Below are positions 1,443 to 23,035 of a DNA stretch of 23,406 nt, one piece after another (position 1 is the first letter of the stretch; each line of letters begins with the position of its first letter). The DNA is from a virus. The stretch covers positions 1 to 23,406 of IMG/VR virus record IMGVR_UViG_3300044797_000276; one strand, written 5' to 3'. Under the pieces are notes generated by a model. The model saw only the letters and a program-made list of their open reading frames with translations, ran no database searches and had not been told where the DNA came from. Position numbers and translations under genes: made by a program.

Positions 1443-1661
1443 ATACCCCCTGAAAATAAATCTGGGGGCAGACGCGTCGCCCGGACTACTGCATAGAATT
1501 ACCCGCTGGTGCTCGTTCGGTGGGGACGGTCGACCACAAGGGCTTGTAAGAGCACCGCCCGTCCTTTAAGTGACCGGTTGCGAGCGATTCCCTGCTGGCA
1601 GCTTGGGTCGCTTGTTTCGGGTAAAGGGGCCGACGACCCCCGGCACTCCGATTTCGGTTGG

Positions 1662-1703
1662 AACCGCGCTCCTCGGCCTTGTGCCGGCGGGCGCGGTTTT
1701 TCT
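1662..1703 (+). terminator. Intrinsic terminator, possible attenuator before the methyltransferase
   Basis: AACCGCGC (1662-1669) pairs with GCGCGGTT (1691-1698), with an inner CGGC/GCCG pairing, followed by a T-rich tail (1697-1703). It lies only 30 bases before the ATG at 1734. An alternative pairing, CCGGCAC (1640-1646) with GTGCCGG (1681-1687), extendable by CCC/GGG across a bulge, would exclude the terminator helix. That layout resembles transcription attenuation. It could also simply end an upstream transcript. Confidence 0.6.
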
Positions 1704-1733
1704 ATGGTCAGGGCACAAAGCGGAGAAAGCGGC

Positions 1734-3299
1734 ATGGCCAAAGCGAAGGTTGACCAGGAACCGGCACTGCGCCCGTGGCCGGCAGACACCGTGGAGCGAT
1801 GGGCCCTCTCCCGCATCAAGGAGTATCCGGAAAACGCGCGCATCCACAGCGACGAACAAGTCCGGCAAATTGCCGACTCGATGGTGGCCTTCGGCGTTAC
1901 CAACCCGGTCCTCGTCGACGAGCACGGGGTGCTCATTTATGGTCACGGCCGCCGGCGGGCCGCGGAGCTGATCGGCTTCGACGAGCTGCCCGTGTGCGTG
2001 GCCCGCGGTTGGACCGACGACGAGAAGCGCGCCTACCGACTGGCGGACAACTTCGCCCCACTCAACGCCGACTGGGACCGGGGACTACTGCGGACCGAGC
2101 TCACCCAACTCAAGATCGCCGGCTTTGACCTCAGGTTGACGGCAGCGCCAGCGGCCACCATTACCGGCCTGCTCGCTTCCCCGCCTGGCGCCGATCCTGA
2201 TGTGGTGCCGACCCCGCCCAAAAAGCCGACCACCAGGCGCGGAGACCTGTGGGTCCTCGGTAACCACCGCCTGCTTGTGGACGATGCGGTCAGCCCGGAC
2301 GCCTGGAAGCGCCTGTTCGGGCAGGCGCGTGCGGCGATGGTCTGGACAGACCCTCCCTATGGAGTGAGCTACCAGGCCGCGAGCGGCAAGTTCGCCACGA
2401 TCTTGGGCGACGACAAGCGCCGCGACGAACTCTACAAGATGCTGACGGCCTCCCTGCGCGAAGCGGTCAAGATCACCAAGCCGAACGGGGCCCTCTACAT
2501 CTGGCACGCGTCCTCCACCCGGGAAGATTTCGCCCAGGCCATGAAGGCGGCCGGCATTGCCGAGCAGCAGTACCTGATCTGGGTAAAGCCGAGCATTGTG
2601 CTCGGGCGCGCGGACTACCAGTGGCAGCACGAGCCGTGCTTTTACGCCTGCCGTGCGGGCCAATCCCCGGCATTTTACGGAGAACGCTCGGAGTCGACCA
2701 CGTGGTATGTGCAGGGGGTGGCCTCCACCGGAGAAGTTGCCGTCAGCGTAGGCACCGGGATCCTCTTGCTTAATGGGGCCGGCGCGGCGCTCTACATCCA
2801 GGCCAAAGCACCCAAGAACAAGAGACTGCGCCAGGTCCGACTGGTCGATGGCGTGAAGGCGCAATTGAGCAGCAGCGACCAGCCGAACACGACCGTGTGG
2901 GAGGTCTCGCGCGACGGCCAGCATGCGCATCCCACCCAGAAGCCGGTGGAGCTCGCCCGGCGCGCGATCGAGAACTCGAGCAAGCCGGGAGAGATCATAG
3001 CGGATGCGTTCCTCGAATCCGGCACAGCGTTGATTGGGGCAGAGCTGACTGGCAGGCACTGCTACGGATTGGAGATCGACGAAAAGTACGCAGATGTGAT
3101 TATTGAGCGCTGGCAGGCGTTTTCAAAGCAGGAAGCGACGCTGGACGGCGTGCCCTTCACTCAGGTGGCGAAGGACCGGGCGAAGCCGCCGCCCAAGACG
3201 CGGCCCCAGGCAGGCGCGAGCGCGCCCGAGCCCAAGCCGAAACCTAAGCCGCCGGATGCGGCCGCGGAGGTTCCTGCCGCTGAACCCACGAGTGCTTGA
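1734..3299 (+). CDS. ParB-like domain fused to beta-class DNA methyltransferase
   Basis: The start chosen is the ATG at 1734, preceded by GGAGA (1722-1726), giving 521 residues; longer reading runs into the leader terminator. Residues 20-110 form a ParB/Sulfiredoxin-type nuclease domain with the GHGRRRAAEL box. Residues about 170-460 are an N6-adenine or N4-cytosine methyltransferase: the catalytic DPPYG is at about 206-210, HPTQKPVELARRAI at about 400, and the S-adenosylmethionine motif at about 424-430. That last motif reads DAFLESGTAL instead of the usual DPFxGSGTT, a degenerate motif I. Catalytic motif before SAM motif marks the beta class. The tail is Pro/Lys/Ala-rich and disordered. ParB-methyltransferase fusions are common phage genes that modify DNA, often against restriction; specificity cannot be read from sequence. 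Confidence 0.9.
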   Translation: MAKAKVDQEPALRPWPADTVERWALSRIKEYPENARIHSDEQVRQIADSMVAFGVTNPVLVDEHGVLIYGHGRRRAAELIGFDELPVCVARGWTDDEKRAYRLADNFAPLNADWDRGLLRTELTQLKIAGFDLRLTAAPAATITGLLASPPGADPDVVPTPPKKPTTRRGDLWVLGNHRLLVDDAVSPDAWKRLFGQARAAMVWTDPPYGVSYQAASGKFATILGDDKRRDELYKMLTASLREAVKITKPNGALYIWHASSTREDFAQAMKAAGIAEQQYLIWVKPSIVLGRADYQWQHEPCFYACRAGQSPAFYGERSESTTWYVQGVASTGEVAVSVGTGILLLNGAGAALYIQAKAPKNKRLRQVRLVDGVKAQLSSSDQPNTTVWEVSRDGQHAHPTQKPVELARRAIENSSKPGEIIADAFLESGTALIGAELTGRHCYGLEIDEKYADVIIERWQAFSKQEATLDGVPFTQVAKDRAKPPPKTRPQAGASAPEPKPKPKPPDAAAEVPAAEPTSA

Positions 3300-4239: not shown

Positions 4240-5013
4240 TTACGCAGCGGTCCCGTAGTACCGGGTCGGCTCGCCCTTCGCCTTCTCCTTGCGGAGCTTG
4301 AGCCCGGCGGCCTTGGCTTGAGCCGGCACGCTCACCGTCGGCCAACCGGTCGCTTCAAGGATTTCGGCACCGGTGCAGCCCTTTGCTCGCGTGAGCAGCC
4401 CGGCAATCAACTCGGTCTTCGAGCCGGTGCGCGGAGCGCCATTGGCCACGGCGGCCTTGGTCTTCGGCGCGGATTTCGCCTTGGTCTTCTTCGTCTTCTT
4501 CGTCACGTCACTCTCCTGGTTTTCGCCCGCGAGCTTCGCCCCGGGCTTGTTGCGGATTTCAGTCACGGAAGTTCCCAGAGCACCGGGCGCATGCCCAACC
4601 TTCTTGAGGTCGGCGATCGCCGCCTTGTCGGCCTCGGTCAGACGCGTGTCCTTGGCCGCGCGATCGGTGGACCGCTGAGAACGCAGTGCCCGGATCTGGT
4701 CGGCCTTAGATGGAGGCTTCCCGGCGTTCTTGCGCGCTTTCGCAATCTCGGCGTCGATCTGTTCTTTCGACTTGCCGGCGAGCCGATCGAGCTTCGGTGG
4801 GATGGAGCCGTCCACCGGCAAGCCCGCGGCGTCCAAAGGGACCGGCGCAACAGCACCAGGGTCGGGCGCAACGACGATCCCGCTGGATGCAACAGGGATC
4901 GCTCCAGGCGCCGCGTTCACGCACTCGTCAGTGAGTTGACCAGCGTCCACCGCCGTCGCGGAGGGAGGAAAAGAGGTCGATCCATTCAACTTGGCAGCTA
5001 GTTCCTTCGTCAT
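4240..5013 (-). CDS. DUF3489 winged-helix-domain phage protein
   Basis: The start at 5013 has AAGGAGA four bases upstream and overlaps the stop of the XRE gene as ATGA; it gives 257 residues. Residues 1-110 are Ala/Pro-rich and low in complexity. A Lys/Ala-rich middle (KKTKKTKAKSAPKTKAA) is probably nucleic-acid-binding. The last 55 residues (SKTELIAGLLTRAKGCTGAE, ATGWPTVSVPAQAKAAGLKL, TRYYG) form a DUF3489-type helix-turn-helix domain. The same domain, with matching ALGWPTISMPAMAK, is embedded in the C-terminal extension of the portal protein (13272-16466). The role is unknown; DNA binding in the early operon is inferred from the domain and the basic linker. Confidence 0.75.
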   Translation of the reverse strand: MTKELAAKLNGSTSFPPSATAVDAGQLTDECVNAAPGAIPVASSGIVVAPDPGAVAPVPLDAAGLPVDGSIPPKLDRLAGKSKEQIDAEIAKARKNAGKPPSKADQIRALRSQRSTDRAAKDTRLTEADKAAIADLKKVGHAPGALGTSVTEIRNKPGAKLAGENQESDVTKKTKKTKAKSAPKTKAAVANGAPRTGSKTELIAGLLTRAKGCTGAEILEATGWPTVSVPAQAKAAGLKLRKEKAKGEPTRYYGTAA

Positions 5014-5462
5014 GGTTTCTCCTTCGGTTGGGTAGGCTGACAAAAATCCAGGTATTGATCGGCGGCGGCGCGCTCGAGCTCTGGCCCAACACGAGCCGCC
5101 AGGAGGTCGTACTCGGCCTCTCGCCCTTCGCAGAGCAGGCCCACAAGGCGCGTGACCACGATCTCGTCGTAGCCAACGGCCCCCCCAGCAGCGAGAGTGG
5201 CCTCGATCTTTGCGACCGCGCGATCCTCATCGCGCTGCCAAGCGCGCTCACGACGCGGCTTGGACTCGATGTAGATGATCACCTCGCGCACCCGGCGTTC
5301 ATGGGCCGTCGTCTTTCCGCGTTCGACTTGGCTCACTGCGGATTGGCCGATACCGGCGAGGTCGGCGATTGTGGCCTGAGAGACGCCGAGCTTTAGGCGG
5401 CGCTCGCGTAGGCGATGGTCACGCCGTGGGGTCACGACTTTATCTCGGCCGGCACGACCCAT
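5010..5462 (-). CDS. XRE-family helix-turn-helix regulator
   Basis: Residues about 14-50 form a Cro/C1-type helix-turn-helix: LRERRLKLGVSQATIADLAG followed by IGQSAVSQVERGK. The remaining about 95 residues are helical and acidic-basic mixed, with no recognised domain. The start at 5462 gives 150 residues. A GTG at 5435, overlapping the upstream stop as GTGA and giving 141 residues, is an alternative; neither has a strong ribosome site. It overlaps the DUF3489 gene at its 3' end. A regulator at the head of the leftward early operon could be a phage repressor or Cro-like switch protein; the GGGTAA-type palindromes are its candidate targets by inference only. Confidence 0.78.
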   Translation of the reverse strand: MGRAGRDKVVTPRRDHRLRERRLKLGVSQATIADLAGIGQSAVSQVERGKTTAHERRVREVIIYIESKPRRERAWQRDEDRAVAKIEATLAAGGAVGYDEIVVTRLVGLLCEGREAEYDLLAARVGPELERAAADQYLDFCQPTQPKEKP

Positions 5463-6194: not shown

Positions 6195-6494
6195 TTGCAC
6201 AGGCCGCCGCGCGCCCCAGCACCCTTCGACATCCGGACATGGGCGGAGTCGATCGACGACAAGCACTTTGCGGCGATCGCCTTCGCCGAAACGCCCGGCG
6301 CCGGCGGCCGCTGGCGCGCCGTCAGTTACTTCCTCATTCTGGACAAGACGCCAGGCTGGCAGTGGCAGAGCCGGTGGCGCGACGCGCTCATCGCTCACTT
6401 CGGCCAGATGCTATGGAAAGAGCACGGCGGCCGACCTCCGGTGGTGAAAGACGATGTCAATTGGCGACGGTGGGGCGCTCCCGAAGACCGCTGA
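6195..6494 (+). CDS. Hypothetical protein with TTG start
   Basis: A TTG at 6195 with an excellent GGGAGGA four bases upstream (6184-6190) gives 99 residues. An upstream ATG at 6138 in the same frame has no ribosome site. The sequence is Trp- and Arg-rich (FDIRTWAESIDDKHFAAIAF, GRWRAVSYFLILDK, WQSRWRDALIAHFGQML). No family was recognised. It overlaps the following nuclease gene by 41 bases, so the two are probably co-translated. Confidence 0.6.
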   Translation: MHRPPRAPAPFDIRTWAESIDDKHFAAIAFAETPGAGGRWRAVSYFLILDKTPGWQWQSRWRDALIAHFGQMLWKEHGGRPPVVKDDVNWRRWGAPEDR

Positions 6495-7113
6495 AGTCAG
6501 TGAGGAACTGGCCATGCGGGCGGCCGTCACCGCCTGGGGCCGTGCCCGCTGGCCCGACTGCCGCGTCCTCCACGAGCTCGCCATGGGCGAGCGCCGAATC
6601 GACCTCGTCTTTGTCGCCCAATCCGACCTCATAGGCGTCGAGATCAAGAGCGGTCGCGATCGCCTCGACCGCCTCGACGGCCAAATGAAAGAGTACGGCC
6701 GCTACCTCCCCGAAGTGTGGGTCGCAGTGGCTCCACGCTGGCGGGACCACGAGGACGTCATCCACCGCCGCGGCAACCTGCTCGTGGTCCCCAGCACCGG
6801 TAACGCCTTCATTCAGAAGCCGGCACCAGGTGAACGCCCCTATCGGGACGAACTCGTCTGCTCCCGTGTGCTCGAGCTGCTCTGGTACGACGAGGCTGCG
6901 CGCATTGCCGTCCGCACGGACGTGGTGCCTCATCGGGTCCCCAAGCAGTTCCGCAAGGACAAACTCCTCAAGCTGCTGGCCCGGCTCTTGACTGGGAACC
7001 AAATCCTGACCGAGGTGTGCCGGGAACTGCGCGAACGCAGCCGCGCCGGCGGCTGGCGAAGCGACGCCCCGCTCCGAGAGCTCGAGGTGCCCGATGAAGT
7101 AACATCCGGCTAG
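6454..7113 (+). CDS. PD-(D/E)XK nuclease (MmcB/sce7726-like)
   Basis: The 219-residue protein contains a restriction-endonuclease-fold core: ELAMGERRIDLVFVAQ followed by IGVEIKSGRDRLDRL. Asp50 and Glu63-x-Lys65 form the D...ExK catalytic set, and the following QMKEYGRYLPEVWVAVAP matches the next strand-helix unit of MmcB and sce7726-type proteins. The C-terminal 90 residues (RVPKQFRKDKLLKLLARL onward) may form a helical DNA-binding unit. Substrate and role are unknown; repair, recombination or host DNA degradation are all possible. The start at 6454 has a weak ribosome site; the ATG at 6511 with GAGGA upstream is an alternative that avoids overlap with the preceding gene. Confidence 0.75.
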   Translation: MSIGDGGALPKTAEVSEELAMRAAVTAWGRARWPDCRVLHELAMGERRIDLVFVAQSDLIGVEIKSGRDRLDRLDGQMKEYGRYLPEVWVAVAPRWRDHEDVIHRRGNLLVVPSTGNAFIQKPAPGERPYRDELVCSRVLELLWYDEAARIAVRTDVVPHRVPKQFRKDKLLKLLARLLTGNQILTEVCRELRERSRAGGWRSDAPLRELEVPDEVTSG

Positions 7114-7142: not shown

Positions 7143-7359
7143 ATGGACCTCTTCGCCATCAACGGCTGGCTACCGATGGGCCGGGCGCCGGCGTCCCGGG
7201 CGCCGCTCACCGAACTGCTGCACGTGGGTCTGCGGGCGATGCGGCCACGCCTTCGAGCACCGCCGCCCCGAAGGATCGGGCGCGCGCCCGAAGTACTGCG
7301 TGCATTGCGCGCGCTATGGGAAGCCAAAAACCGCCAGGAGAGACCGTGGACGCTACTGA
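7143..7359 (+). pseudogene. Zinc-ribbon protein, frameshifted at a GGG run
   Basis: From the ATG at 7143 the frame reads MDLFAINGWLPMG...APLTELLHV and then degenerates. Removing one G from GGG (7226-7228) gives VCGRCGHAFEHRRPEGSG and PKYCVHCARYGKP, which carries two CxxC pairs, then a basic tail to the TGA at 7357-7359. The repaired product has about 71 residues and a clear treble-clef or zinc-ribbon pattern. The end overlaps the GTG start of the trigger-factor gene by 14 bases, supporting the repaired frame as the real gene. Its function is unknown; small zinc ribbons in phages often bind nucleic acid. Confidence 0.6.
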
Positions 7360-8443
7360 ACTCGTCGCTCGCCGAACCGCCTTCGGGGTCGTCTACCAGG
7401 TCACGATCCCGGCTAAAGCCATCGATGCGCAGATGACGGCACACCTCGCCAAGATGGCGCCCCGCATTTCGCTTAAGGGCTTCCGCCCCGGGCGCGTGCC
7501 GGCTTTTCACCTGCGCAAGATCTTCGGCAAGCAAGCGATGGCCGAGGTCATCGATGCGGCCGTGCGGGAGGCCAACGCCGACCTGTCCCGCGGCCGGTGG
7601 CGCGTGCTGGACGAGCCGAAGGTCACACTGCCCACCGACGAGAAGGAGCTCACGGCCGTCATGGCCGGTACGGGCGACCTCACGTACACGGTCGAACTGG
7701 AGGTATTGCCGGAGGTCGTGCCGATCGACTTCGCGACCATCCGGCTCGAGCGCAAGTACACCGAGATCACCGACGAAGTCGTCGACAAGGCCCTCACCGC
7801 GATTGCCCACCTCAACCGGCCACCGAGAGCGCCCGAGGCCACCGAGGACCCGCCGGCGGCCGCCATCGATGACGCATTTGCCAAGACGTTCGGTGCAGCA
7901 GACCTCGAGGCTCTCCGTGCCCAGATCCGAGAACGCGCCGAGATCGAGGCGGCGGTCGCCTCCCGCATGCGCCTCAAACGTGCCCTCCTGGACGTCCTTG
8001 TCGAGGCGCATACCTTCCCGGTCCCGCCCTCCCTCGTCGAGCTCGAATTCAAGACCGTCTGGGCAGCCGTCGAGGGCGACCTCCGAGAGCATAAAACCAC
8101 CTGGGAGGAGCAGGGAGCCACGGAGGCCGCTGCCCGCGAGGAGTACACGGCGGTCGCAGAGCGCCGCGTGCGCATCGGGATGATCATCACGGAAATAGGC
8201 GACCGCAACGACATCTCGGTGAGCGATGCCGAAACAGACGCCGCTGTGGCCGATGCTGCACGCCGCGTAGGCCCCGAAAACGTCCAGAACGTAATCCGGT
8301 TCTACCAGACCAACCCGCAGGGGCTGGCAAGCCTGCGCGCCCCCCTCTTCGAGGACAAGGTGGTCGATTTCATCCTGGCTCAGGCCGTTGTGGTCGACAT
8401 GCTCGTGAGCCGGGAGGAACTCCTCGCCGATGATCAGCCCTGA
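7346..8443 (+). CDS. tig: Trigger factor homologue lacking the PPIase domain
   Basis: A GTG at 7346 with AGGAGAG upstream gives 365 residues, against about 430-460 for bacterial trigger factors. Residues 1-115 are the ribosome-binding domain with the signature GFRPGRVP at 45-52, which contacts ribosomal protein L23. Residues 115-156 match the linker (LEVLPEVVPIDFATIRLERK). The sequence then passes through about 16 residues straight to IDDAFAKTFG (174 onward) and the complete C-terminal chaperone arms (VPPSLVELEF, LRAPLFEDKVVDFIL, VSREELLAD). The whole FKBP-type prolyl isomerase domain of about 95 residues is therefore missing, cleanly. The similarity to alphaproteobacterial trigger factors is strong and suggests capture from a host. 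Trigger factor folds nascent chains; a role in folding phage proteins is inference. Confidence 0.9.
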   Translation: MDATELVARRTAFGVVYQVTIPAKAIDAQMTAHLAKMAPRISLKGFRPGRVPAFHLRKIFGKQAMAEVIDAAVREANADLSRGRWRVLDEPKVTLPTDEKELTAVMAGTGDLTYTVELEVLPEVVPIDFATIRLERKYTEITDEVVDKALTAIAHLNRPPRAPEATEDPPAAAIDDAFAKTFGAADLEALRAQIRERAEIEAAVASRMRLKRALLDVLVEAHTFPVPPSLVELEFKTVWAAVEGDLREHKTTWEEQGATEAAAREEYTAVAERRVRIGMIITEIGDRNDISVSDAETDAAVADAARRVGPENVQNVIRFYQTNPQGLASLRAPLFEDKVVDFILAQAVVVDMLVSREELLADDQP

Positions 8444-8848: not shown

Positions 8849-9340
8849 ATGACGACGCCGACCGCGCCCCGCCTGCCAAAGGGCCCAGCACCAGGCACCC
8901 ACCGCCGACAGGCCAACATCCTCACTCGCCGTAAAGCCGCCGAGCTCATGGCCAAGGGCGAAAGCCCGCTCGATGGCCTCATGGACGAAGTCCGTTGGTG
9001 GAAGCGCGAGATCACCCAGCTCGAGGCCACCATGCGCGCGGAGATGGCCAAGAAGGGCGTGGCCAGCATCCTGGCGCTCGACCGCGAAGGCGTCGTCCTC
9101 AACTTCTTCGAGTCGAAGAAGGAATACCGGGCCTGCTGCATGGCCGCGGCCACCTGGGTGCACCCGCGGCTTACACCGGAGAAGCCGGGCCCAGGCACCG
9201 GCGGCGTCAGCGCGCACGACCTAAGCCAGCTAACCGACACCGAACTCGACCAGCTGGTCAGGGTCGGCCGCAAGATCGCCAACGCGCACGGTAGCGACCA
9301 GGCCGCAGCAGCAGCGCCCCATGAGCCTGCAAAGCGATAA
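8849..9340 (+). CDS. Probable terminase small subunit
   Basis: The 163-residue protein lies directly before the large terminase and overlaps it by 20 bases, the usual place for the small subunit, which selects the DNA to be packaged. Residues about 20-70 contain a helical, basic segment (THRRQANILTRRKAAELMAK) that may correspond to the DNA-binding helix-turn-helix, and residues 85-125 an oligomerisation-like stretch. No decisive motif is seen, so the call depends on position. The ribosome site is weak (AGAG). A structural or unrelated function remains possible. Confidence 0.5.
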   Translation: MTTPTAPRLPKGPAPGTHRRQANILTRRKAAELMAKGESPLDGLMDEVRWWKREITQLEATMRAEMAKKGVASILALDREGVVLNFFESKKEYRACCMAAATWVHPRLTPEKPGPGTGGVSAHDLSQLTDTELDQLVRVGRKIANAHGSDQAAAAAPHEPAKR

Positions 9341-10937
9341 CGACGTCGACGTCCCCGACGAAGAGATCGAGGCGCTAGGCAAGGCCGCCTGGGCCCTGGA
9401 GCGCCTCCCAGAGCTCGAGGCGGAAGTCTACCGCCGCCAAATGGAGGGTGAGCGCCGGCGCCTATCGGTGCACGGCGACGAAATCCGGGAGCGATGCAAG
9501 AGCCTGCGCCACTACATTGCGGAAGCGTGGCCTGTGATCGAGCCGACCACGCCCTACGTCTACGGCTGGCACCACGACGCCGTCAGCGAGCACCTCGAGG
9601 CCGTCACCCGGGGCGAGATCCAGCGCTTGCAGATAAATATGCCCCCCGGTTGCATGAAGAGTCTGATCGCCTCGGTGCTCTTCGAGACCTGGGAGTGGGG
9701 CCCAGCCGGCAAGCCAGGCCTGCGGTACCTGACCACGTCGTACAAGGCCGACTACGCCAAGCGCGACAGCGGCAAGCACCGCGACCTGGTGCTCAGCGAG
9801 TGGTACCAGACGCTGTGGCCGCACATCGTGCTCGAGAACGACAACGCTGCCAATTTCCAAAACACGTTCAAGGGCGGCCGTCGGGCCGTCCCGTTCCAGT
9901 CTCTGACTGCGGGCCGCGGCAACCGCCTGGTGATCGATGACCCGCACTCCACCGAGCAGGTGGAGAGCAAGACCCAGCTGCTGCGCGCGCGCCGCATATT
10001 CCGGGAATCCGCAACCAGCCGCCTCAACGACCCCGCGCGGGACGCGATCATCGTGATCATGCACAGGCTGCACAACCAGGACGTCTGCGCGGTGATCGAG
10101 GAGCTCGGTCTGCCCTACACGAAGCTGATCCTGCCCATGGAGTACGAACCGAAGTCGGTCGTTTATTCCAAATACTACAAGGACCCGAGGGAGGAGAAAG
10201 GTGAGTTGCTGTTCCCTGACTTCATCCCGCGCGAGACCGTCGAGAAGAACAAGATCGAACTGGGCTCACATGCCTACGCGACCCAGTATCAGCAACAGGC
10301 CAGCCCGCGCGAAGGAACGCTCTTCAAACGCCACTGGTTCAAGATCGTGGATGCGGTCCCCGCCCGCGTGCGCGCCCGCGTGCGCCGCTGGGACCTGGCC
10401 TCAAGCGAGGAGGCGGGTGACTGGACCGCCGGCGTGCGCATGGTCGCCTCGCTGGATGGCGAGTATTACATCGAGGACGTCATGCGCTTCCGGGAGCTCG
10501 GCGCCCACGTCCACGCCACGATCAAGACCACGAGCGTCACCGACCAGACCTGGGGCGTCTGCCATGTGGTGGTCCCGCAGGATCCAGGCCAGGCCGGCAA
10601 GGACCAGGTGGCCGCCTACATCAAGGAGAACGCGGGCATTCGGATCAGCGCTGAGCGCGAGACCGGTAGCAAGATCACACGCGCCGAGCCCTTCGCGGCC
10701 CAGTGCGAGGCCGGCAACGTTTACCTCGTGCGCGGTGCCTGGAACGAGGCCTTCATCGACGAACTGTGCAAGATCAACCCCGCCACCATCAACGCGATCG
10801 AGACCGACCAGATGGATGCGGCCGCGGGCGCCTTTAACAAGTTGCTCTCCCTGAAAGGATTCCAGGCGACCCAGGAAATGGTCGACGAAGTCAACCGAAT
10901 CGGGCGAATGCAGCAGATGATGCGGAGGCCAACATGA
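9321..10937 (+). CDS. terL: Phage terminase large subunit
   Basis: The 538-residue protein is the packaging motor and nuclease. The ATPase has a Walker A-like INMPPGCMKSLI at about 105-116 (the usual form is MPPRHGKS) and a Walker B, LVIDDPH, at about 203-209; MHRLHNQDV lies in the coupling-motif area. The RNase H-like nuclease domain starts at RRWDLASSEE (Asp358), continues with VVVPQDPGQAGKDQ and ends with ETDQMDAAAGAFN, giving the three expected acidic positions. Its length is normal for the gp17-like family. It docks on the portal during packaging. The next small gene overlaps its stop as ATGA. Confidence 0.95.
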   Translation: MSLQSDNDVDVPDEEIEALGKAAWALERLPELEAEVYRRQMEGERRRLSVHGDEIRERCKSLRHYIAEAWPVIEPTTPYVYGWHHDAVSEHLEAVTRGEIQRLQINMPPGCMKSLIASVLFETWEWGPAGKPGLRYLTTSYKADYAKRDSGKHRDLVLSEWYQTLWPHIVLENDNAANFQNTFKGGRRAVPFQSLTAGRGNRLVIDDPHSTEQVESKTQLLRARRIFRESATSRLNDPARDAIIVIMHRLHNQDVCAVIEELGLPYTKLILPMEYEPKSVVYSKYYKDPREEKGELLFPDFIPRETVEKNKIELGSHAYATQYQQQASPREGTLFKRHWFKIVDAVPARVRARVRRWDLASSEEAGDWTAGVRMVASLDGEYYIEDVMRFRELGAHVHATIKTTSVTDQTWGVCHVVVPQDPGQAGKDQVAAYIKENAGIRISAERETGSKITRAEPFAAQCEAGNVYLVRGAWNEAFIDELCKINPATINAIETDQMDAAAGAFNKLLSLKGFQATQEMVDEVNRIGRMQQMMRRPT

Positions 10938-12400: not shown

Positions 12401-12477
12401 TGGCTGCGTAGAGAGGGCTCAAACCTCTGACCCCGCCGGTTAACAGCCGACTGCTCTACCAGCTGAGCTACTACGCA
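12401..12477 (-). tRNA. tRNA-Asn (anticodon GUU) with encoded CCA
   Basis: On the minus strand a complete cloverleaf folds from 12477. The acceptor TGCGTAG pairs with CTACGCA, the D arm is GCTC/GAGC with a loop containing GG, the anticodon stem GTCGG/CCGGC holds the loop CTGTTAA with anticodon GTT, and the T arm is AGAGG/CCTCT. The discriminator G and an encoded CCA (12403-12401) follow. U1-A72 and G73 agree with tRNA-Asn. The T loop reads TTTGAGC, with T in place of the usual C56, which weakens one tertiary contact. Phage tRNAs usually supplement host decoding. It lies opposite to all surrounding structural genes. Confidence 0.93.
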
Positions 12478-13271: not shown

Positions 13272-16200
13272 ATGGCGACAAGCAAGCGGGCGGGCGGGGA
13301 ATCACCGAACTGGGGCGGCGCCAGGCCACGCCGGCGCAAGAAGGCGCCAGATGCCGCCGTAGCCCAGCCAGATAGCGCCGTATTCGAGCCGGGTGGCGCC
13401 ATGGCGCGCCCCACAGCCCCCGTGCCGGCCGAAGTGCGCAAGCCCATGGCGCTCGGCATCGACACGATGGCCGTCATCATGGAGGCCGTCGAGACCTACG
13501 CGAAGGACCACCAGCGCACCCGCGAGAACAGCCCGTTCCGGCTGCCTGAGTTCCCGCCCGAAGCCGTCCCGAAAAAGAAGTCCATGCGGCTCGCCATGGA
13601 CTCAAACACGAACTGGGCCACCAACCAGTGGATCGGGGACTTCGCACAGGGCGTCTTCGCCAGCATCGGTGCGGAGGGCCTGCTCTTCCCGGGCTACCCA
13701 TACCTGTCGCAACTTGCGCAGCGGCCCGAGTACCGTGTCATCTCCGAGACGATCGCCGACGATGCGACCCGCAAGTGGATCGACTTTGAGGTGACCGGCA
13801 ACGAGGAGGCCGGCGCAGACAAGGAAAAGAAGCGGGACAAGCAGCGGGCCCAAGCCCTCGACGAAGGCCGCCCGACCTTCAAGAACGCCGACCCGGACGA
13901 GCGGAAGGACAAGGTCAAGAAGTCGGGCAAGACCGAGCGGGTGAAGGGGATCAAGGACGAACTCGACCGGCTCGAACTGCGCGATCGCTTCTACGCCATG
14001 ATCCGGGATGACGGCTTCTTCGGCCGCAGTCATCCCTACCTCAATTTCGGCGAGGATAGCGAAACGCCCAAGGGCCTCGCCGAACTCAAGATGCCGATTG
14101 GTAACGGCCGCGACAAGATCAGCAAGGCGAAAGTAGGCAAGTCCAACCCGCTCAAGGAAGTCAAAATCATCGAGCCGGTGTGGGTCTACCCGATCGCCTA
14201 CAACGCGACCAACCCGCTGCGCGACGACTGGTACAATCCGCAGACTTGGTACGTGATGGGCAAGGAGATTCACTCCTCCCGCATTCCCGCGTTCATTACA
14301 CGCCCGGTCCCGGACCTCCTCAAGCCCGCCTATAGCTTCGGGGGACTGTCGCTGTCTCAAATGGCAAAGCCATATGTCGACATCTGGCTGACCACCCGCC
14401 AGGCGGTTGCGGACCTCATTCGCTCGTTCTCGATCATGTGCCTGGCCACCGACATGCAGACCAACAGCATGCCGGGCGGGACCGCTGGCGCCAGCCTCGC
14501 CATGCGCGCGGCCCTGTTCACGTCTCTGCGCGACAACATGGGATTGTTTCTGTCCAATAAGGACACGGAGGAATTCTCGAACGTGTCGGCGCCGCTGAGC
14601 GGCCTCGACCACCTGCAGGCCCAGGCCCAGGAGCACATGGCGTCCGTGAGCCGCATCCCGCTCGTCAAACTGACCGGCATCAGCCCTTCAGGCCTGAACG
14701 CCTCCAGCGAGGGCGAGATCCGGGTCTACTACGACACCATCAGCGCATTCCAGAACCGGACCATGCGCAAGCTCCTCACCCAGATCATCAATTTCGTGCA
14801 GCTGTCGTTGTGGGACGAGATCGACCCGGAGATCACATTCGAATTTGAGCCGCTTTGGGACATGACGTCCAAGGAGCTCGCCGAGTTGCAGAAACTCGAG
14901 GCCGAGCGCGACGAGAAGTACGTCGACCTGAGCGCCCTCGCACCAGCCGAAATCCGAAAGCGCATCGTCAACGATCCGAAGCTGCCATACACGGGCCTCG
15001 ATCCCGACGATCTGCCGGACCTGCTCGAGGAGGAGGAGTCGGGCCTCATCCCCGAAGGTGGCGGCAAGGGCCTCGAGGCCGTGCTGGGAGCTGCCGGCGC
15101 CGAGACCGGCGAGGATCCGCCCGATGGAGGCAGCAAGGGCCCTGGTGGCAAACAACCAGGCCGTCCTGACAAGAAAAAAGACGAAAACGACAAGGGATCC
15201 GGCAAATCTGTAAAGCCGAACGGCAAGGGCGGTAACGTGACCATCACGATCGCTCACGATCAAGCCGCCGACGGCACCAAGATGTCACAGGACGCGGTCG
15301 GCTACACAACCACCTGGGCGGACTCGCGCACCCAGTGCCAGGCCTGCGTGATGTTCGATGGTGAGAACAATGCGTGCGACCTCGTCGAGGGCGAGATCGT
15401 GGCGACGGGGCACTGCCGCAAATTCGAGCCAGTCGAACCAGGTCGTGCCAACGACGCCGAGTGGCGCGAGAGCGACCATCCGCGCAAGGATGACGGTAAG
15501 TTCGGCACGGGAAGCGGGGCCGAGTCTCATGACAAACCCGAAAAACTGACAGGGGCAGAATCCGGAGAAAAACCGGAAGGCGGCAAAGGCGGCAAAAAGG
15601 ACATTGCTCGGGAACTGCTGACCAGGGGCGTGACCAACGCCGACATGCTCAAGGCGCTCGGCTGGCCGACGATTTCCATGCCGGCCATGGCGAAGTCCCT
15701 CCATCTGAACCTGGAAAAGGTGAAGGAAGGCGGAGCCACGCTCTACCGCGGCACGCCATACACCGATGAGCAGATGGCCGAAGTCGAGGCCGAGCGTGCC
15801 AAAAAGCGCGCGAACCGCCGAGGCGGCGGTCCCCAGTCCCAACCCGAAGAGACATGGAGCCTGCTGCAGTTTCTCGCGGCTCGCGGCGGGATCCGCGCCG
15901 ACGACGCCCTCATCACCGACCTGCGCCAGTCGTTCGGGGGCAAAAACAAGTTCGTGCCCGGCTTCGGTCAGTTGATCCGACCCAACAAGCAATCCTCGGA
16001 AGCCGCCAAGCGATCGGGCGCGCACGGGCCCATGAGCCTTGACCAGGCGCTGCGCGCGGCCGTCGAGGCCGGCTACATCAGCGAGCGCGGCGCCGAGACC
16101 GGTGGCGCCGAAAGCACCTACATCGCCGAGCTACTCGAGGCCATCGACACCGAGGCCCGCGGCCAGCACGTCTACCGCCAAGGCTACCAGCCGGAGAACG

Positions 16201-16466
16201 TACCGTCCGACCCGGCCGAGCTCGAAAAGGCTGAGCACGATTTCATCGCGAGCCTGCACGACAACCTCGCAGCCGGCGGCGGCACATTGACCGACGAAGA
16301 ATGGAATCGCGCCCTTGAGATGTGGGCCCACGAAGGCTTAAGTGACCCCGACACCGTGCTCGAGCGGCTCTTCATTGAGTCGCGTGGCCGCGATATCGAC
16401 AGCGGAGCCGTCCATGACGAACCAAAGCTCGAAGACTGGGACTCCCCGCCCGACGATGACACCTGA
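13272..16466 (+). CDS. DUF1073-type portal protein with multi-domain C-terminal extension
   Basis: At 1064 residues this is about twice the usual size of the family. Residues about 60-620 match the DUF1073 portal family (whose Pfam model also covers the N-terminal domain of Acb1-related proteins): NWATNQW, WIDFEV, DDGFFGRSHPYL, IPLVKLTGISPSGLNASSEG (from about 463) and YYDTISAFQNRTMRKLL. A charged Lys-rich insert lies near 175-235. A Gly/Lys/Pro-rich linker follows, then a four-Cys motif CQACVMF (Cys689) ... NNAC ... GHCRKF resembling a high-potential iron-sulfur or zinc site, a WRESDHPRKDDGKFGTGSG motif, a DUF3489-type helix-turn-helix (about 777-830), and SLLQFLAARGGIRADDAL...KFVPGFGQLIR (about 861-940), as in large polyvalent proteins. 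The portal forms the DNA gate; the extension's role is unknown. Confidence 0.88.
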   Translation: MATSKRAGGESPNWGGARPRRRKKAPDAAVAQPDSAVFEPGGAMARPTAPVPAEVRKPMALGIDTMAVIMEAVETYAKDHQRTRENSPFRLPEFPPEAVPKKKSMRLAMDSNTNWATNQWIGDFAQGVFASIGAEGLLFPGYPYLSQLAQRPEYRVISETIADDATRKWIDFEVTGNEEAGADKEKKRDKQRAQALDEGRPTFKNADPDERKDKVKKSGKTERVKGIKDELDRLELRDRFYAMIRDDGFFGRSHPYLNFGEDSETPKGLAELKMPIGNGRDKISKAKVGKSNPLKEVKIIEPVWVYPIAYNATNPLRDDWYNPQTWYVMGKEIHSSRIPAFITRPVPDLLKPAYSFGGLSLSQMAKPYVDIWLTTRQAVADLIRSFSIMCLATDMQTNSMPGGTAGASLAMRAALFTSLRDNMGLFLSNKDTEEFSNVSAPLSGLDHLQAQAQEHMASVSRIPLVKLTGISPSGLNASSEGEIRVYYDTISAFQNRTMRKLLTQIINFVQLSLWDEIDPEITFEFEPLWDMTSKELAELQKLEAERDEKYVDLSALAPAEIRKRIVNDPKLPYTGLDPDDLPDLLEEEESGLIPEGGGKGLEAVLGAAGAETGEDPPDGGSKGPGGKQPGRPDKKKDENDKGSGKSVKPNGKGGNVTITIAHDQAADGTKMSQDAVGYTTTWADSRTQCQACVMFDGENNACDLVEGEIVATGHCRKFEPVEPGRANDAEWRESDHPRKDDGKFGTGSGAESHDKPEKLTGAESGEKPEGGKGGKKDIARELLTRGVTNADMLKALGWPTISMPAMAKSLHLNLEKVKEGGATLYRGTPYTDEQMAEVEAERAKKRANRRGGGPQSQPEETWSLLQFLAARGGIRADDALITDLRQSFGGKNKFVPGFGQLIRPNKQSSEAAKRSGAHGPMSLDQALRAAVEAGYISERGAETGGAESTYIAELLEAIDTEARGQHVYRQGYQPENVPSDPAELEKAEHDFIASLHDNLAAGGGTLTDEEWNRALEMWAHEGLSDPDTVLERLFIESRGRDIDSGAVHDEPKLEDWDSPPDDDT

Positions 16467-21673: not shown

Positions 21674-21906
21674 CCGGCTGGGTCGACTGTCCACGCAACG
21701 GCGAAGTTATGTTTCAGCGCTTGGTGCGGGACGACGGCAAAGTGCTCGGGTGCATCATGCGTTTCTACGATACCGGCCCGACTTACGCCGCCGCATTGGG
21801 CCGACGTCTAGGGCCATGCTCCCCTCGAAACATTTCAGAGCCGACCGGTGAGCAATGTGATGACGCCGCACGGGGCGCGGTCGAGCGGGCGCTGGGGGTC
21901 AAATGA
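21670..21906 (+). CDS. Hypothetical protein (78 aa)
   Basis: ATG at 21670 overlaps the previous stop as ATGA, with GAGGAAG upstream. It reads MTGWVDCPRNGEVMFQRLVR, VLGCIMRFYDTGPTYAAALG, with four cysteines in all. Function unknown. It is part of the ATGA-linked chain leading to the head morphogenesis gene. Confidence 0.58.
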   Translation: MTGWVDCPRNGEVMFQRLVRDDGKVLGCIMRFYDTGPTYAAALGRRLGPCSPRNISEPTGEQCDDAARGAVERALGVK

Positions 21907-22130
21907 CGCTGCCGCCGGAGCGTATAGGCGACAAGGGCCAGCGCTACGAGGTGCGCGCCCTCGGCTGGCCGAAGGACTGCTGGTCGACGGTTGGCTGGGT
22001 CGAAGATATAGAGCAGGCGAAAGCGTTGATCCATGCGATTTCATCAGCTCCTGGTTTCGACCAAGCAGAGATTTGCGACCGAGAAGAAAACCGGATCGTG
22101 ACAATCGCCCTGCATCGGAGCGCGTGGTGA
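21903..22130 (+). CDS. Hypothetical protein (75 aa)
   Basis: ATG at 21903 overlaps the previous stop as ATGA. The sequence (GQRYEVRALGWPKDCWSTVG, WVEDIEQAKALIHAISSAPG, ENRIVTIALHRSAW) suggests a small alpha/beta fold. Function unknown. The stop overlaps the GTG start of the MuF-like gene. Confidence 0.6.
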   Translation: MTLPPERIGDKGQRYEVRALGWPKDCWSTVGWVEDIEQAKALIHAISSAPGFDQAEICDREENRIVTIALHRSAW

Positions 22131-23035
22131 AGCCCAAGAAGGAAAAGCTGCTGCGCCCCGTCCGGCCGAACGTCGGCATCGAGCGCGAGTACCGGCGCCG
22201 CCTGGACAAGCTGATCTGCGAGATGGCGCGGTCTTATGCTCATTGGGTGAGGGCTTGCTACCGGGCGAACGAGCCGGTGATGTCGATGGCTATGGACGAG
22301 GAGCGGCGCCTGTGGGCAACCGAGGTCGCCGCTGGCACCATCGTGCGCGACAGCATGAACCGCATAGTGGGAACGACCGACGAGACGTGGCTGGCAATGG
22401 ACGCGACCCCCGCCTCCCAGCTCAAGATGGAGGTGAACCGGCTGGCCCGGCACTGGAACAAGCGCTTCAACGAGGCGTCCAAACAGCTTGCCGCCTATTT
22501 CATGCTGTCGGCGTCCAGCCGCAGCGATGCCGCGCTGCGCAAGATCCTCAAGGATGGGGGCTGGAGCGTTAGGTTCCAGATGACGCCGGCGATGAGGGAC
22601 ATCAGGGCCGCCACCGTCGCGGAGAACGTGGCGCTGATCAAATCGATCCCCCAGCAGTACCACACCGAAGTGCAGGGACTGGTGATGAGGTCGGTGACTG
22701 CGGGTCGCGACATTGGCTACCTGAGCGAGGAGCTGGCGAAGCGCTTCGATATCACCAGGAAGCGCGCGCAGTTAATCGCGCGAGATCAGAACAACAAAAT
22801 GACCGGTGCCTTCCAGCGTGCGCGCCAGATCGAGATTGGGATCAAGGAAGCAGTGTGGTTGCATAGCCACGGCGGCAAGGAGCCGCGGCCGACCCACTTA
22901 GCGAATGACCGCAAGCGCTTCAACGTGGCGACCGGTTGGTTCGACCCGGACCCGAAGGTGAGGCGCTTCATCACCCCGGGCGAGCTCATAAACTGCAGAT
23001 GTTCTAGCAGAGCGATCGTGAAAGGATTCAGCTGA
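22127..23035 (+). CDS. MuF-like (SPP1 gp7 family) minor head morphogenesis protein
   Basis: GTG at 22127 overlaps the previous stop as GTGA, with GGAG eight bases upstream; 302 residues. The N-terminal two thirds are helical and basic. The C-terminal domain carries the family signature: AQLIARDQNNKMTGAFQRAR, then WLHSHGGKEPRPTH, FNVATGWFDPD and PGELINCRCSSRAIV. MuF proteins sit inside the head near the portal and act in head assembly or early ejection. No toxin domain is attached. In related phages this gene directly follows the portal; here about 5.7 kb of small genes separate them. Confidence 0.88.
   Translation: MKPKKEKLLRPVRPNVGIEREYRRRLDKLICEMARSYAHWVRACYRANEPVMSMAMDEERRLWATEVAAGTIVRDSMNRIVGTTDETWLAMDATPASQLKMEVNRLARHWNKRFNEASKQLAAYFMLSASSRSDAALRKILKDGGWSVRFQMTPAMRDIRAATVAENVALIKSIPQQYHTEVQGLVMRSVTAGRDIGYLSEELAKRFDITRKRAQLIARDQNNKMTGAFQRARQIEIGIKEAVWLHSHGGKEPRPTHLANDRKRFNVATGWFDPDPKVRRFITPGELINCRCSSRAIVKGFS

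Follow-up and report, generated by a model that had tools for sequence, protein, structure and literature searches.

A phage-encoded trigger factor without the PPIase domain near the terminase genes of a small alphaproteobacterial phage

A metagenomic virus record carries, upstream of its terminase genes, a gene for a trigger factor (TF) from which the peptidyl-prolyl isomerase (PPIase) domain is missing. Is this gene a damaged piece of host DNA or a protein maintained by the phage, and in the latter case, what could a TF of this form do for the phage at the host ribosome? The whole stretch of DNA analysed here (23,406 nt, referred to as the window) is the IMG/VR virus record IMGVR_UViG_3300044797_000276.

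Domain composition and conservation of the phage trigger factor

The gene and its parts are located as follows:

7346..8443, + strand: PPIase-less TF, 365 aa (Pfam, TIGR00115, alignment, AlphaFold2 model)
7336..7340 (approximate), + strand: Shine-Dalgarno sequence AGGAG upstream of the GTG start, CAGGAGAGACCGTG (sequence)
7346..7813, + strand: N-terminal ribosome-binding domain and linker, residues 1-156 (Trigger_N, alignment, Foldseek matches 1oms/1p9y)
7478..7501, + strand: ribosome-docking signature GFRPGRVP, residues 45-52 (fits GFRxGxxP)
7814..7864, + strand: 17-residue joint in place of the PPIase domain, residues 157-173 (alignment gap)
7865..8443, + strand: C-terminal substrate-binding domain with both arms, residues 174-365 (Trigger_C, helices of the model)

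The longest frame of this ORF starts at ATG 7316; the GTG codon at 7346 is closely preceded by AGGAG, and a start there places GFRxGxxP at residue 45, near its usual position in bacterial TFs. Trigger_N (83.8 bits) and Trigger_C (120.9 bits) are the only Pfam domains of the 365-aa protein, with no match to FKBP_C, while the same scan of its closest full-length relative, L073, finds Trigger_N, FKBP_C (60.9 bits) and Trigger_C. The equivalog model TIGR00115 scores 212.7 bits against a cut-off of 180.2, matching in two stretches. Chance as the source of the domain matches is excluded by their E-values.

In an alignment of the phage TF with 17 alphaproteobacterial TFs, the FKBP domain falls into a single unbroken gap with a net length of about 85 residues, across which NRPPRAPEATEDPPAAA (residues 157-173) forms the joint. 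The frame runs on through this joint, and GC3 is high on either side of it. Since FKBP_C is absent and the gap amounts to about 85 residues, the protein is best filed as a PPIase-less TF variant and not as a canonical TF. The original prediction of an in-frame TF gene at 7346-8443 that has lost its PPIase domain is therefore confirmed; the gap is domain-wide, as had been proposed, although the suggested size of the loss (about 95 residues) was slightly high. Retention of the docking loop and of complete C-terminal arms had been proposed as well, and the Trigger_C match indeed covers positions 2-161 of the 162-position profile. The docking-loop columns are invariant in the compared TFs, the sole change in the phage protein being K50 to R (GFRPGKVP to GFRPGRVP). 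No separate PPIase gene was found among the main ORFs of the window. At the TF locus itself, no convincing repeats flank the deletion and no promoter or terminator stands out above chance.

The AlphaFold2 model of the 365-aa protein has a mean pLDDT of 85.8, and its lowest internal block (mean 60) is the joint. E. coli TF (1w26) is the top PDB match of this model in Foldseek (E 1e-16, TMq 0.70), followed by ribosome-bound TF, full-length TF 3gty and the isolated E. coli ribosome-binding domains 1oms and 1p9y.

At about 40% overall identity, the phage TF keeps 52 of the 59 columns (88%) in which conservation among cellular TFs reaches 90% or more. This fraction is comparable to that of the less conserved cellular TFs (cellular range 0.85-1.0). 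Of the seven positions that differ, several carry conservative exchanges (K to R, L to I, L to M, L to F). Codon usage of the TF gene correlates with that of the phage genes at r = 0.945 (0.94-0.97 for the methyltransferase, terL and portal genes). Because 52 of the 59 positions are kept and the TF fold is predicted, the gene looks selected and not decaying. Of the domains of the cellular TFs compared, PPIase is the best conserved (mean identity 0.53, the other domains having 0.40 and 0.51), therefore its loss is not obviously neutral.

The phage locus and the origin of the gene

The following neighbouring genes were annotated:

6454..7113, + strand: sce7726-family-like protein, upstream of TF (NF033832, 69.3 bits, cut-off 70)
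8849..9340, + strand: probable small terminase subunit, TerS (homologues directly upstream of terL in L078, 44%, and L079, 37%)
9321..10937, + strand: large terminase subunit, TerL (PHROG 38, Terminase_6C)
13272..16466, + strand: portal protein with a long C-terminal extension (Phage_portal_3, PHROG 146)
21848..23035, + strand: MuF-type head morphogenesis protein (Phage_Mu_F, PHROG 324)

The TF gene lies upstream of terS-terL-portal on the same strand, about 400 bp away from terS, which has no library match and is probably the small subunit gene judging by its position. On the other side of TF, genes for the sce7726-like protein, an HTH protein, a DUF3489-type protein, a ParB-N/N6-N4 methyltransferase and a GcrA homologue are located. 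clpP and clpX, common though not defining neighbours of chromosomal tig, are not found beside the phage TF gene, their place being taken by the sce7726-like gene, terS and terL. The proposal that the gene is phage-borne and sits beside terminase genes agrees both with the nature of the record and with the presence of terS, terL, portal and MuF-type head genes.

The gene order recurs in the related phage contig L078: a DUF3489-type gene, then other cargo, then terS-terL-portal. Its cargo probably includes a cytosine methyltransferase gene. As the flanks are the same in the window and in L078 while the cargo is different, the phage TF occupies a variable cargo slot. Synteny of both flanks with L078 also marks the gene as borne by a tailed phage and argues against plain host chromosome as the source of the flanking DNA, an objection anticipated in the original prediction. 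The other anticipated objection, a PPIase-containing homologue at the same locus, finds no counterpart either, as TF is present in none of the 98 terminase-related phage loci (1.44 Mb; in 60 of them the contig extends 3 kb or more upstream of terL). Searching for relatives by way of the portal protein gave none.

Several other features of the window deserve mention. A homologue of the cell-cycle regulator GcrA (482-958, - strand) and a ParB-N/N6-N4 adenine-type methyltransferase (1509-3299, + strand) form a pair which echoes the GcrA/CcrM cell-cycle pair of alphaproteobacterial hosts. The portal ORF (13272-16466) codes for 1064 aa, and part of its C-terminal extension resembles the DUF3489 C-terminus of the ORF 4240-5043 (- strand) product; both match one place in L270. 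A tRNA-Asn (GTT) gene is located between terL and portal on the opposite strand (12401-12477, - strand).

As expected from the alphaproteobacterial type assigned to it originally, the phage TF is 34-43% identical to alphaproteobacterial TFs. In a maximum-likelihood tree built on shared columns it is sister to L073 and L110 (UFBoot 91), within a group that holds TFs of Mesorhizobium, Sinorhizobium and Methylobacterium, and its terminal branch, at 0.84 substitutions per site, is longer than any other. L073 and L110 are full-length Hyphomicrobiales-type TFs which share with the phage TF the N- and C-terminal domains (43% identity overall) and an insertion near residue 100, but they retain the FKBP domain; L073 adjoins clpP on host DNA, whereas the phage TF stands among phage genes. 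The C-terminal part of the phage TF is at most 49% identical to that of any sampled bacterium among the matches listed. This low identity and the longest terminal branch indicate that the gene did not arise recently by deletion within a sampled host gene. The simplest reading of these sequences is that the gene was captured from a Hyphomicrobiales-like host and has since evolved independently for a long time.

An error of contig assembly or a captured host gene in decay could also produce a TF without its middle domain, and the gene is indeed a singleton in a 23-kb metagenomic record, with TF in 0 of the 98 related loci. However, the deletion is in frame and follows the domain borders, both halves have the codon bias of the phage genes, and 365 codons are free of stops at about 60% divergence with 88% of the strongly conserved sites kept. 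Since no sampled bacterial TF exceeds 49% identity in the C-terminal part, the gene is not a freshly mis-joined host gene of a sampled lineage. We consider an artefact unlikely, and artefact and decay taken together have quite a low probability in our estimate.

Counterparts of the PPIase-less form and its possible role

An identical domain layout, with the ribosome-binding domain, linker and substrate-binding body with arms, is known from engineered E. coli TF, named RBD-SBD or delta-PPIase (PMC5722895; works cited in PMC8185961 and PMC4626277). While those constructs are man-made from a cellular TF, the phage TF arose in nature, has diverged and joins its halves by a 17-residue stretch of its own; it is the natural counterpart of a construct previously made only in laboratories. 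The PPIase domain of E. coli TF is dispensable for chaperoning both in vitro and in vivo (PMC9287376; PMC8185961). The dimer KD of RBD-SBD (1-148/247-432) is 54-72 uM, compared with about 2-3 uM for full-length TF (PMC5722895), and a simulation of the collapsed TF, with PPIase packed on arm 1, shows weaker binding to unfolded chains (PMC4626277). Among natural proteins, Mycoplasma MPN555 (PDB 1zxj) resembles the substrate-binding body of TF and, like the phage TF, has no PPIase domain. The fold match between the two is weak (E 1e-3, TMt 0.5-0.6), and MPN555 is a cellular protein of about 192 residues which, unlike the phage TF, has no ribosome-binding domain.

On balance, we lean towards the phage TF being a working, anciently captured, mostly monomeric holdase that would dock on the ribosome and serve phage proteins. 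According to this model, the gene would have been taken long ago from a Hyphomicrobiales-like host and the PPIase domain lost as one unit. The N-terminal domain would dock on the host ribosome through uL23 at the exit tunnel, with the arms of the C-terminal domain cradling the emerging chain. If the E. coli findings apply to this protein, it would dimerise weakly and have no domain to fold back onto arm 1, and should therefore be mostly monomeric, open and ready for ribosomes. Presumably it is made together with the neighbouring late genes and may give abundant phage proteins, e.g., head and portal subunits, an additional holdase, a benefit that would come at a small coding cost. Late-gene clients are proposed here from gene position alone. 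In general terms, this phage protein probably helps phage proteins to fold as they leave the host ribosome.

A bolder reading, which we put forward as a tentative suggestion only, is that the phage TF, made monomer-biased by the loss of PPIase, out-competes at uL23 the host TF, whose storage form is a dimer, and perhaps SRP as well, and during infection so reprograms the handling of nascent chains for the benefit of phage proteins. Competition could even be the main function. The phage TF would then act as a decoy which takes uL23 from the host TF and perhaps from SRP and SecA, which share this site, turning co-translational processing away from host proteins, with chaperoning of phage proteins being secondary. 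The intact docking loop is in line with this, as is the approximately 16- to 40-fold weaker dimerisation of the equivalent E. coli construct (PMC5722895), which should leave more of the protein free to bind. However, a pure decoy needs the N-terminal domain only, whereas the C-terminal arms are fully retained and conserved. Moreover, E. coli tolerates the loss of TF alone, so blocking the host TF would bring little. Overall, we find the decoy function doubtful.

Alternatively, the TF body could work off the ribosome in virion assembly, holding portal, scaffold or capsid subunits or modulating delivery to ClpXP, with ribosome binding being unimportant. The gene does adjoin packaging and head genes. 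TF is also reported to handle partly folded clients off the ribosome (PMC9287376), and to be functionally linked with ClpXP (PMC7804408). On the other hand, the ribosome-docking loop is retained except for the K to R change, and a fold search of predicted viral structures with the phage TF model has returned nothing TF-like. This makes an assembly chaperone rather improbable in our opinion, and the ribosome-docked holdase remains the reading that we prefer.

Trigger factors in other phages and in bacterial genomes

A single-protein scan of IMG/VR has found no direct homologues of the phage TF. All the IMG/VR TFs with the docking motif that span the region are full length, and the closest of them, L073, is encoded by host DNA (tig followed by clpP) inside a proviral record. 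The only GenBank phage hits were two 'Acinetobacter phage MD-2021a' records, in which the tig-clpP-clpX neighbourhood is host chromosome; one of them (L002, CAKLQH020000005.1) contains leuA and metX besides tig-clpP-clpX, and its sequence there resembles host chromosome.

Genomes were searched in two ways. A scan of 84,980 species genomes for a docking motif with the C-terminal domain beginning at the PPIase-less distance after it, which covers GC-rich codon use and the GFRPG motif only, gave four hits; all were full-length TFs in which the second motif had matched GDEAFA or GDDPFA within PPIase. TFs were also surveyed in 385 Alphaproteobacteria, 397 genomes of the order of G364 and 299 Pseudomonadota, overlapping sets of about 1,080 genome draws in total. 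No PPIase-less TF occurs there among the matches listed, in which a second, weaker copy could be missed. The short TF frames encountered had other causes: an N-masked gene in G309, a frameshifted gene with PPIase present in G865, and genes split by contig ends in G558 and others. In the 7-Mb genome G865, the host tig (L310) is split within the N-domain by a frameshift which is probably a sequencing error. The PPIase-less TF is thus apparently unique in the collections searched, with one example.

Phage-borne TF itself is not unique. A TF-alignment search has brought up a clade of huge phages, with contigs reaching 481 kb (300-481 kb among them), which encode a TF of about 415 residues:

L182:3472-4722, L184:3532-4854, L176:5281-6507; also L185-L213 and L228: huge-phage TFs

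Most of these proteins have the docking loop. They retain PPIase, as judged by FKBP_C in those scanned and by the strands in a model, and this domain is about as conserved as their N-domain. Conserved neighbours include genes for an SbcC-like protein, a dNMP kinase, a chitobiase-C-type protein, a PD-(D/E)XK exonuclease and DnaE (polymerase III alpha). The window TF is phage-encoded too, but it lacks PPIase, lies near terminase and not beside DNA-replication genes, and at about 18% identity to the huge-phage TFs (18% to L182) does not belong to their clade. No close relative of the huge-phage TFs was found among named GenBank phages. The novelty claimed originally therefore holds for the PPIase-less form and not for the carriage of TF by phages as such. 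A survey of huge phages lists many translation genes, and the words trigger factor and chaperone are absent from its main text (PMC7162821); the literature searched contained no description of a PPIase-less phage TF or of the huge-phage TFs.

A natural, diverged and apparently selected PPIase-less TF offers a way to ask when evolution can spare this domain. Together with the full TFs of huge phages, it suggests that the site of nascent chain exit is a further point at which phages intervene, besides initiation, elongation and tRNA supply.

Among the huge-phage DnaE frames, those of L176 (7925-10591) and L184 (5896-8643) stop prematurely within a sequence of intein type, LYFxESVDIFxSxGxxxxxKPIQDxQPGEFVRSRDExTGEDIYIEVIG; the DnaE polymerase of L182, in contrast, is unbroken (1179 aa).
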